This document shows positions 34,101 through 36,592 of a stretch of 64,000 nucleotides of DNA, piece by piece. The notes under the pieces were generated by a model, which did not search any database, was not told the origin of the DNA, and was given only the letters and a program-made list of their open reading frames with translations. Position numbers and translations under genes: made by a program. The stretch is from Cloeon dipterum (taxonomy: Eukaryota; Arthropoda; Insecta; Ephemeroptera; Baetidae). The stretch lies in contig NC_088790.1 in the NCBI RefSeq assembly GCF_949628265.1, forward strand, positions 13,706,545 through 13,770,544, read 5' to 3'. Each line of letters begins with the position of its first letter. Within the stretch, counting starts at the first letter, position 1.

Positions 34101-36592
34101 TTTCTTTGCTAGTAATAGACTAAGAAGAGAAATTAATGAGGGTTTGATAAAGAATCTTTCAAACTATTATGAGTGTGAATTTTAGACTGTTGATAAGCAA
34201 CTATTTTTTTCTGAGCTTCCAATCATAATTAGACCACCAAATTAGCACAATTCACGTAATTTAAAGCCATTAAAAACAATCTTACAACGTCATACACTTT
34301 CAAAACTATCTATAAATTTGCCAAGAGTTAGTATCTTCTTAGTTTTGTAATCACTATTTTTTCAATAATTTCTACGGAATAATTGATTCCAGAACAATTA
34401 AATCGACCAGATGTGTTCATTAATTTACAGGTTATATGTTTGCAGGCACTCCAGGTCTGTCTGGAGCGACAACTCCAGAAACGCCGGCTGTGGAGGTGGC
34501 GGAGGCGGCCACTGCACTCCTGGGCGAGCGGTCTCCGCAATCGATGCTGGTGATGTCAGGCGGAGAAGGCTACATCGACTTCAGAGTTGGTAAGCTCGAT
34601 TGATATGTGGCTTTGGTTTTTGAGCACGGTGATTAATTATTTTGGAAGATTGTACCTGCACCAGACATTTTCTTGTTCTCTCTCAATCCATGAATAGGCA
34701 TTTACTTAAAGTTGTACTATAATTTTAACACGTCAGTTCGAGTTTCAAAATTGGCATGTAGTGGTGAGTGCTGGCTAGTTGGTAATTTTCTCGGCAAATC
34801 TCGCAAAATCACTAACCCTTTCTGAGATCATTAACTCACTCGCAGCTGCGTCCCAGGTGAGCACCCTAGATCATCTTCTGTATACACTCAAACACACACA
34901 CGTCTGTGGTTTCACGAAAATCGAGCGAGTTTTCGTGCGAAGAAAGAAAGAGTCGGGAAGCAGTAAGCAGTGGCGCACCCATGTTGCAAAACACGCCCCT
35001 AACTCCCCGCGCACCAGGCAGGGTTGTTTCTTTCCCGAGTGTCGAGTCCGTGATCTGAACATACAGAGAATGCAATTTTTGGCGCGTGCCAGTGGGACCA
35101 AATCTCCTGTGGAAATTGTTTCATTCCAGTGGATGATGGGGAAGAGGCGCTGGACGTGGCTAGCCACCTGATTGTGTGGCAGCTGACCAACCAATCCTCT
35201 GGCGCCAAGCATGCACCCGAGCCGCCGCCGGCCCAGCAGCAGCAGCCGTCTAACGGGGAGGCCCAAGCCCCTCAAGCTGGCCCTGCTACTTAGTTGATGT
35301 GTTTTTGAGATGAACTAGTCAGTTAGTATTTTAACTCTTCGCAATGTTTGCATCTCTCTTACTCACTCTTTCTTCCGATTTTGTTTGTTGCGTTCGTCCT
35401 TTCTGCACTCTGTCTGTTTTGAGTTGAAAATAGGTTTCTCTTCTTGTTGTTTGGTAGTTCTTCATGATAAACGCATTCTCACAAAGACATGGTAAGATTT
35501 TAGGTTGATTCCTTCCTATCCGTTATCACACTTAACGCATGCTTCTTTGCAAATGATTAACATTTATCAATCGTCTAAATTGAATGACAATCTTAAAGCT
35601 TTTTTCGTGCTCAAATTCGTTGTTTGTGTAATTCAATTAGGAATTGGAGGCCGCCAGTGATAAATCCTGAAACAAAATCGGCTAATTGCGTGAATCGTTT
35701 GTGCGAAAAATTGTGCCACCGCCCATTGACATAACAGTCGCAATATGTTGCTATACTCCAAAATCAATCGATATGATCGAAGTTTAAAAATAAATACTCA
35801 TAAAATCATATTAAGTATATTATTCATCTTAATTTTTATTTTCATATCACTGAATTCCACACTAATCCCAGGTAAATATTTTTGGTTCAACATTTTGATA
35901 AAAAGCAAAAGCAATCGTTTAATTCATGTTGTTCTGTTTTAAAGTAACACACGTTCACAAATAGAAAATATTTTTAGCCGTCAATTTCATCCATTGATTT
36001 TATCCTTGATAAAAATGACTTTTTACGAGACATAAACCTAGCACTTCTGACATACAATAAAAAAGTTTTTCCTGAGCTTTATATATATTTTAAAATTTCT
36101 AATTCGTAGAAATTTAATTGTAACTCTGTTGGATTGAAACAAAAAATAGCACCGCGAAAAATGGTCGGTGCAGTGGCATCAGTTGTGCATAAAAATTCGC
36201 GCAAACCGAATTTTGAAGACATTATTTAAATTATAAGTTTTTAAATTTTATACAGAGTTTCCAGCTCTTTGTAATCTATCGTAACTGAATTTCACAAGAG
36301 ACGAATTATAAAAGCCACACTGTCCAAGTTGCATTATGAATAGTACACACAAATCCCGATGATGGACTTCAGAATTCAAAACTTGGCTTGGAATTTGGCT
36401 GCGGGGTGTATGTGTGAACGTTTATCCAAATGTGGCGTGTTCATTTTAGGAGACGGTGCCGAGGAGGATGATGACATGTGCCTCAACGACGAGGACGACG
36501 TCATATGCACGGACAGACCTGACTTTAGTGGAGGCCTCGTGTCCAAGATGGACCGCAGCCACCTGATCGTGTGGCAGGTGGTGGCGGACTGA
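25148..36592 (+). CDS. syd: JNK-interacting protein 3/4, kinesin adaptor (Sunday driver)
   Basis: A cytoplasmic scaffold linking kinesin-1 and dynein to vesicle cargo and JNK-pathway kinases, important in axons. Twenty-four coding exons join in frame to 1,313 residues (human JIP3 about 1,336): 25148-25447, 25611-25731, 25792-26135, 26994-27057, 27219-27357, 27417-27508, cassettes 27610-27645, 27814-27876 and 28125-28142, then 29116-29173, 29228-29284, 29344-29491, 29543-29736, 29795-30017, 30256-30787, 31122-31373, 31469-31576, 32033-32192, 32246-32462, 32964-33135, 33616-33729, 33778-34020, 34446-34589, 36450-36592. Residues 1-100 are the RH1 region, followed by coiled coil. Residues 393-480 are a leucine-zipper coiled coil starting [13 protein letters not shown]. 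The RH2 helix ([20 protein letters not shown]) starts near 485. FFSNLFS follows at about 545. The WD40-like propeller spans about 755 to the end, with [20 protein letters not shown] near the C-terminus. Several donors are weak (GTTTGA, GTTTGG, GTACTA, GTTGTC). The start is the conserved family N-terminus. Confidence 0.95.
27610..27645 (+). other. syd: JIP3 cassette mini-exon 1 (12 codons, phase 1-1)
   Basis: Bounded by an acceptor (GCGTTCAG) and a donor (GTTTGT). It is 36 nt long and starts and ends in phase 1, so it can be skipped without a frameshift. It encodes [12 protein letters not shown]. Its first four residues repeat those at the start of the constitutive exon 27219-27357 (GGWVDG). 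The weak donor suggests regulated inclusion. Confidence 0.65.
27814..27876 (+). other. syd: JIP3 cassette exon 2 (21 codons, phase 1-1)
   Basis: 63 nt between TTCAAG and GTACGC splice sites, with both ends in phase 1. It encodes a serine/acid stretch followed by a basic one ([20 protein letters not shown]). Skipping keeps the frame. The acceptor lacks a strong pyrimidine tract, so it is plausible but less certain than its neighbours. Confidence 0.6.
28125..28142 (+). other. syd: JIP3 microexon 3 (6 codons, phase 1-1)
   Basis: Only 18 nt, between a TTCAG acceptor and a GTAAGT donor. It encodes VNDNFF and then completes a Gly codon with the next exon. Joined to GMGKEVENL it gives [14 protein letters not shown], which matches an alternative vertebrate JIP3 form that I recall as reading NDFFG before MGKEVENL. 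That makes this tiny exon credible. Confidence 0.75.
35130..35293 (+). other. syd: JIP3 proximal alternative last exon
   Basis: A good acceptor (TTTCATTCCAG) follows the phase-1 donor at 34,589. The exon encodes [20 protein letters not shown] and then a Q/P-rich tail ending QAGPAT before TAG. SHLIVWQ is the conserved last strand of JIP3/4. Two AATAAA hexamers follow (35,789 and 36,056). Use of this exon gives a 1,320-residue protein. Confidence 0.8.
35789..35794 (+). terminator. Candidate polyadenylation signal for the proximal JIP3 end
   Basis: AATAAA about 0.5 kb after the proximal stop codon and before the distal last exon. A second AATAAA lies at 36,056-36,061. Either would end transcripts before the distal exon. 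Confidence 0.4.
36056..36061 (+). terminator. Second candidate polyadenylation signal, proximal JIP3 end
   Basis: AATAAA followed by an A/T-rich stretch, located between the two alternative last exons. Confidence 0.4.
36450..36592 (+). other. syd: JIP3 distal alternative last exon
   Basis: Acceptor GTGTTCATTTTAG, in the same phase as the proximal exon. It encodes an acidic stretch ([17 protein letters not shown]) and ends [11 protein letters not shown] before TGA. The acidic linker and end resemble the vertebrate JIP3 C-terminus more than the proximal exon does, so this may be the ancestral end. The proximal exon carries its own stop, so only one of the two can end a given transcript. Confidence 0.85.

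Follow-up and report, generated by a model that had tools for sequence, protein, structure and literature searches.

Two alternative last exons of the JIP3/syd gene in the mayfly Cloeon dipterum, most probably an old duplicated pair

Introduction

How does a gene come to have two last exons that spell the same short motif, and how old is such an arrangement? The question is raised by the JIP3/Sunday driver (syd) gene of the mayfly Cloeon dipterum, which lies in a window of 64,000 nucleotides (assembly GCF_949628265.1, contig NC_088790.1, positions 13,706,545–13,770,544, forward strand), the whole stretch of DNA analysed here. A first-pass annotation of the window proposed that two complete last exons follow a common phase-1 donor, that both encode SHLIVWQ before ending in different tails, and that they reflect duplication of a terminal exon with divergence, coupled to alternative polyadenylation.

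Terminal exons that resemble each other and are selected through poly(A) sites form a known class (PMC3228551). No description of this pair of JIP3/Syd ends, of its spread or of the fixed spacing in one of the two ends was found among the papers listed, at the level of titles and the beginnings of abstracts. Since the isoforms are already in public protein records, what is new is the recognition of what appears to be an old paralogous pair. The domain concerned is of interest in its own right. In the available text of a fly Syd study (Lund et al., PMC12772503), the constructs derive from one isoform, isoform A (UniProt Q9GQF1), the WD40 domain of Syd is described as being of unknown function, and RUFY binding in flies is reported to require a region of Syd containing WD40.

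Results

The JIP3/syd gene

The shared part of the gene was assembled by hand as a chain of 22 exons, to which either the proximal last exon, A, or the distal last exon, B, was then added (Table 1). The frame is kept with both ends, giving proteins of 1287 residues (A) and 1280 residues (B), and with the B end the gene spans 25,148 to 36,592 on the + strand. A 25-exon chain, which is the 22-exon chain with two optional exons, one alternative donor, one alternative acceptor and the B end, is identical over 1323/1323 residues to a deposited model, C. dipterum JIP3 isoform X5 (P0002), and this identity upholds the assignment of the gene to JIP3/syd. In P0002 the N-terminal RH1 domain (PF09744) scores 57.6 bits against a Pfam cutoff of 24 and the leucine zipper II (JIP_LZII, PF16471) 106.1 bits against a cutoff of 30. 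The C-terminal WD40 propeller that marks JIP3/JIP4/Syd adaptors is present, and the JIP3 models of Neocloeon and Cloeon match RH1, JIP_LZII and WD40 in Pfam.

Elsewhere in the window, on the opposite strand, lies a candidate gene which, judged by a motif in its open frame, looks like a member of the Kruppel-like factor family. A Pfam scan of its open frame, which does not include the zinc-finger exon, gave no match.

Table 1. Positions of features in the window (position 1 is its first base; a slash marks a splice junction)
Feature	Position	Strand	Details
JIP3/syd shared part	25148-34589	+	22 exons; GT donor at every exon, AG acceptors in exons 2-22
Optional exon	27814-27876	+	63 bases; included in deposited isoform X5
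Exon 16 alternative donor	31541-31576	+	adds 36 bases (12 residues); site used in deposited isoform X5
Microexon AVFPG	33452-33466	+	15 bases, WD40 part; in deposited isoform X5
Exon 22 alternative acceptor	34431-34445	+	15 bases upstream (GYMFA); in deposited isoform X5
Exon 22 (last shared)	34446-34589	+	ends CGACTTCAGAGTTG/gtaagctc; phase-1 donor
Alternative last coding exon A (proximal)	35130-35293	+	ttcattccag/TGGATGATGG; 13-residue linker
SHLIVWQ motif of exon A	35162-35182	+	AGCCACCTGATTGTGTGGCAG; genome position 13741706-13741726
AATAAA, possible poly(A) signal for A	35789-35794	+	count near chance
AATAAA, possible poly(A) signal for A	36056-36061	+	count near chance
Alternative last coding exon B (distal)	36450-36592	+	ttcattttag/GAGACGGTGC; long acidic linker
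SHLIVWQ motif of exon B	36557-36577	+	AGCCACCTGATCGTGTGGCAG; genome position 13743101-13743121
ATTAAA, possible poly(A) signals for B	36994-36999 (first); also 37485, 37627, 37799, 37844	+	
Candidate Kruppel-like factor gene	49800-57141	-	open frame 56128-57141; zinc-finger exon near 49.8-50.1 kb

Two complete last exons

Exons A and B fit one donor in equal phase, and each carries its own stop codon (TAG at 35,291–35,293 in A, TGA at 36,590–36,592 in B), as is expected of alternative last exons (ALEs). Internal mutually exclusive exons, from which terminal exons are treated apart in the available text of PMC3228551, are excluded by the stop codon in both. The end encoded by exon B is identical to the C-terminus of P0002. 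On the structure of the two exons the first-pass annotation held in full: their coordinates are exact, SHLIVWQ is present in both, and their translations bear out that the tails differ.

A degenerate 21-nt pattern for SHLIVWQ, with serine coded as AGY only, has two matches in the 190,111,064 bases of the genome (10 contigs), both in JIP3 on the + strand, the second starting 1,395 bases after the first. As a control, the pattern was also run in reverse over the whole genome, where it has no match. The exon A peptide and the exon B peptide each map to one place in a whole-genome search, and no further copies of either exon were found elsewhere in the genome by the peptide and motif-pattern searches.

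The two ends in other animals

Three protein searches together gave 245 distinct entries: the first contributed its best 120 of 4,319, the second all 9 of its matches, among which 5 were new, and the third its best 120 of 4,342. Each entry was assigned to the A class if it contained D-x-A-x-HL-x-x-W shortly after YIDFR. An A-type end had been added to the query of the third search, so that A ends ranked higher in it. The entries are representatives at 90% identity, a grouping that may conceal isoforms from one gene, and the absence of a type from a species therefore carries little weight. The deposited models are mostly computer predictions.

Among the 245 matches listed, 104 are of A type, a non-independent sample that includes 40 isoforms of Panulirus ornatus and 38 Drosophila entries, and 141 are not. 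The linker between YIDFR and the strand is 13 residues long in 103 of the 104 listed A entries and 11 in the other, a millipede. In 140 of the 141 non-A entries listed it is 23–47 residues long; the remaining one is a salmonid HIIVW end which was missed by the linker pattern and has a long, B-like linker. Linkers of 14 to 22 residues are absent from the 245 matches listed and no listed non-A linker is shorter than 23, so every short-linker end also has D-x-A-x-HL-x-x-W. That D, A, H, L and W never vary among the 104 A entries is uninformative because the pattern presets these residues. In rows picked by hand, position -4 is D and position -2 is A in 21/21 A ends; in the B ends, position -1 is S and position -5 is R or K, each in 22/22. 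Exon A itself is 85% identical to Neocloeon and Ephemera over 98% and 93%, respectively, of a scored stretch of 42 residues, part of which consists of shared exon-22 residues.

Among the entries listed, A ends are found in mayflies, Timema, a scale insect, a psyllid, the bed bug, wasps, an ant, bees, a beetle and Drosophila, and outside insects in decapods, with an A-like end in a millipede. B ends are found in mayflies, a cockroach, termites, crickets, a locust, Timema, leafhoppers, thrips and Drosophila, and beyond insects in decapods, an isopod, a tick, octopus and vertebrates. The two ends occur as separate models in Macrobrachium rosenbergii, Cherax quadricarinatus and Panulirus ornatus, the contigs of each decapod pair being of equal listed size and the Cherax pair falling under a single name, OTU49_016332. 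They also occur as separate models in 13 Drosophila species (rhopaloa, yakuba, teissieri, sechellia, eugracilis, simulans, mauritiana, takahashii, innubila, hydei, montana, virilis and novamexicana). The D. melanogaster entry (P0136) has an A end; the species presumably also has a B end, and one identical B end is carried by 75 of the best 120 of 4,342 entries in the third search. In the models of Ephemera danica (P0121) and Timema monikensis (P0010), A runs into B in the same order as in the window, which suggests the same exon order in those genomes; the joining of the two looks like gene-model error or read-through.

Judged by these deposited sequences, the two-end arrangement is not particular to the Cloeon genome. 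The first-pass annotation had proposed that two SHLIVWQ-type exons be sought in other insect orders; at the level of deposited protein models, both kinds of end are present there, for example in the 13 Drosophila species. That annotation had also named what would count against it, that exon A might be a decaying copy confined to this genome; this is excluded by A ends across arthropods, and a copy confined to mayflies is likewise excluded, since further mayflies, insects of other orders and decapods all have A ends. Its other condition, that only one of the two junctions would ever be seen, is countered at the level of gene models, both kinds having been deposited for relatives. With both kinds of end in crustaceans and in fruit flies, the pair looks like an ancient switch and not a mayfly oddity.

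Several variants were noted among the ends. Drosophila A ends listed vary after KVDT, reading DT, DTR or DTTFNL (P0127, P0132 and P0140), and D. yakuba has both DT and DTR ends, as if another splice or stop choice followed exon A. A third end, KSYLIVWHRQQVIYNLYVYQAHSK, which departs from B after LIVWH, is present in D. novamexicana (P0243–P0245). The A-like end of the millipede Chamberlinius hualienensis (P0066), which has the 11-residue linker, reads GEDEAEDVASHLIMWQVDSTE; its sequence may represent an early form of A.

Apart from this millipede end, A among the entries listed is limited to Pancrustacea. Of the two forms of the last exon, the older is probably B. It is unlikely that A and B were both present in the bilaterian ancestor and that A was lost, or has gone unsampled, in vertebrates, molluscs and chelicerates. 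All 104 A entries are arthropod by name, and none of the 11 entries from vertebrates, octopus and tick is of A type, all being of B type; this outgroup is nevertheless thin (5 entries from vertebrates, 5 from octopus and 1 from a tick, of the 245 listed), and grouping at 90% identity may hide isoforms of a single gene. We consider it quite improbable that exon A, though a genuine 3' end, lacks a function and is made of an intronic poly(A) site and a leftover exon copy. The residues after the strand do vary in sequence and in length, as would be expected of such a relic, but decay would have erased the 13-residue spacing (103/104) and the HLxxW that are kept from decapods to Drosophila. Spacing and strand are also kept in mayflies, Hemiptera, Hymenoptera and a beetle, and the A ends of D. 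melanogaster and D. hydei differ at two residues up to KVDT.

Similarity between exons A and B

The case for a duplication can be followed in the exons themselves. A local DNA alignment of A and B scores 41, a value equalled in 2 of 2,000 base shuffles. The motif DNA is equal at 20 of 21 bases, and the acidic openings are alike (VDDGEEALD in A, GDGAEEDDD in B). Alignable DNA amounts to about 35 bases, and neither the flanking introns nor the 3' UTRs of the two exons reach the highest score among 200 shuffles; with similarity so restricted and the flanks dissimilar, the claim of duplication rests on the common motif, the acidic start and the phase. The shuffle test and the genome-unique pair of motifs place the similarity past chance, as is expected of homologous exons, and together with the common phase they support the duplication with divergence put forward in the first-pass annotation. 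That A was instead built independently from intron sequence, its strand converging on that of B, is highly improbable, since the equal phase, the similar acidic opening and the 20 identical motif bases out of 21 speak against it, even if so short an alignable stretch, with flanks no better than shuffles, is what convergence would leave.

The 3' ends

The layout of the locus suggests that the choice of end would be coupled to alternative polyadenylation. The AATAAA hexamers cited by the first-pass annotation at 35,789 and 36,056 are in place, but 1.18 would be expected after exon A from base composition, and the two observed are thus weak evidence. After exon B, ATTAAA occurs five times where 1.19 are expected, and no AATAAA was found downstream of it as far as 38,000. 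Control by ELAV through U-rich runs is unsupported, since the count after A (4 in 1,156 bases) is unexceptional beside those of five other stretches, which run from 0 in 540 bases (before A) up to 11 in 973.

The presumed propeller strand

It is plausible that the HLIVW of both ends closes the WD40 propeller as its last strand. AlphaFold models of the A end (23 sequences) and the B end (26 sequences) both have a pTM of 0.35, with a mean pLDDT of 47.1 and 45.7, respectively, and a tail below 50 in each. A short strand is predicted at the motif, at residues 1190–1194 in A and 1161–1167 in B, both stretches having a pLDDT below 50. For A, 16 of the 50 rows listed have an aligned range that extends as far as this strand; for B, 3 of 50 do. 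A sequence search of solved structures with P0136 gave four matches at E 0.01, none of them on the WD40 part; the best stretches of all four lie within residues 42–432, which leaves that part unmatched.

Discussion

Exons A and B are most probably paralogous alternative last exons, the product of an old duplication, between which transcripts would swap the C-terminus and the 3' UTR jointly. The scheme that we infer takes in the origin and date of the duplication, the coupling to polyadenylation, the placement of the strand and a functional difference between the ends. In an early mandibulate arthropod, an ancestral B-type last exon would have been copied together with its acceptor and phase; the A-type copy would then have dropped the long acidic linker and become fixed at 13 residues ahead of HLIVW. 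A transcripts would splice to the proximal exon and be cleaved within its 3' UTR, while B transcripts would bypass exon A together with its poly(A) site, so that the choice of A or B would exchange the C-terminus and the 3' UTR in one step. Both ends plausibly give the same last WD40 beta strand and so would keep the fold. The loop preceding the strand would differ, being short and fixed in A and long, acidic and variable in B, and these differences, with those in the residues after the strand, would probably tune the binding of partners by the propeller.

A more tentative suggestion is that the two ends form functionally different propellers, a switch older than the split between insects and decapods which might choose WD40 partners (for example RUFY), and with them transport direction or cargo, according to cell type. 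If two old propeller ends exist, results obtained with a single Syd isoform may not apply to the other. Should the reading be correct, the A/B pair would provide a genetic handle on the role of the WD40 domain in Drosophila, and a last-exon duplication would have been retained across arthropods.

Within the JIP3/JIP4/Syd family of dynein and kinesin adaptors, to which the Cloeon gene belongs by the match of its exon chain to the deposited Cloeon model, two end types per species are seen, among the entries listed, in arthropods only. One close comparison in arrangement is with the genes of Drosophila in which alternative last exons are linked to polyadenylation, or ALE-APA (PMC8055025, PMC9470587), 348 ALE genes having been analysed in the latter. 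The JIP3 locus has their usual layout, in which a proximal exon is followed by possible poly(A) signals and then by a distal last exon, and in both cases the proximal and distal forms differ in C-terminus and 3' UTR alike. Neurons of the fly tend to use distal last exons, driven by ELAV and FNE, in the available text of the same two studies; by analogy, B would be predicted in neurons. Their main text does not name syd. A second comparison is with human capping protein beta, described in the available text of PMC3228551 as having homologous 3'-terminal exons picked by alternative poly(A) sites. Like JIP3, it has two similar terminal coding exons of which one is used per transcript. Unlike those of capping protein beta, the JIP3 exons differ in length by the linker, and their clear likeness lies in a short stretch, the presumed strand of the propeller.
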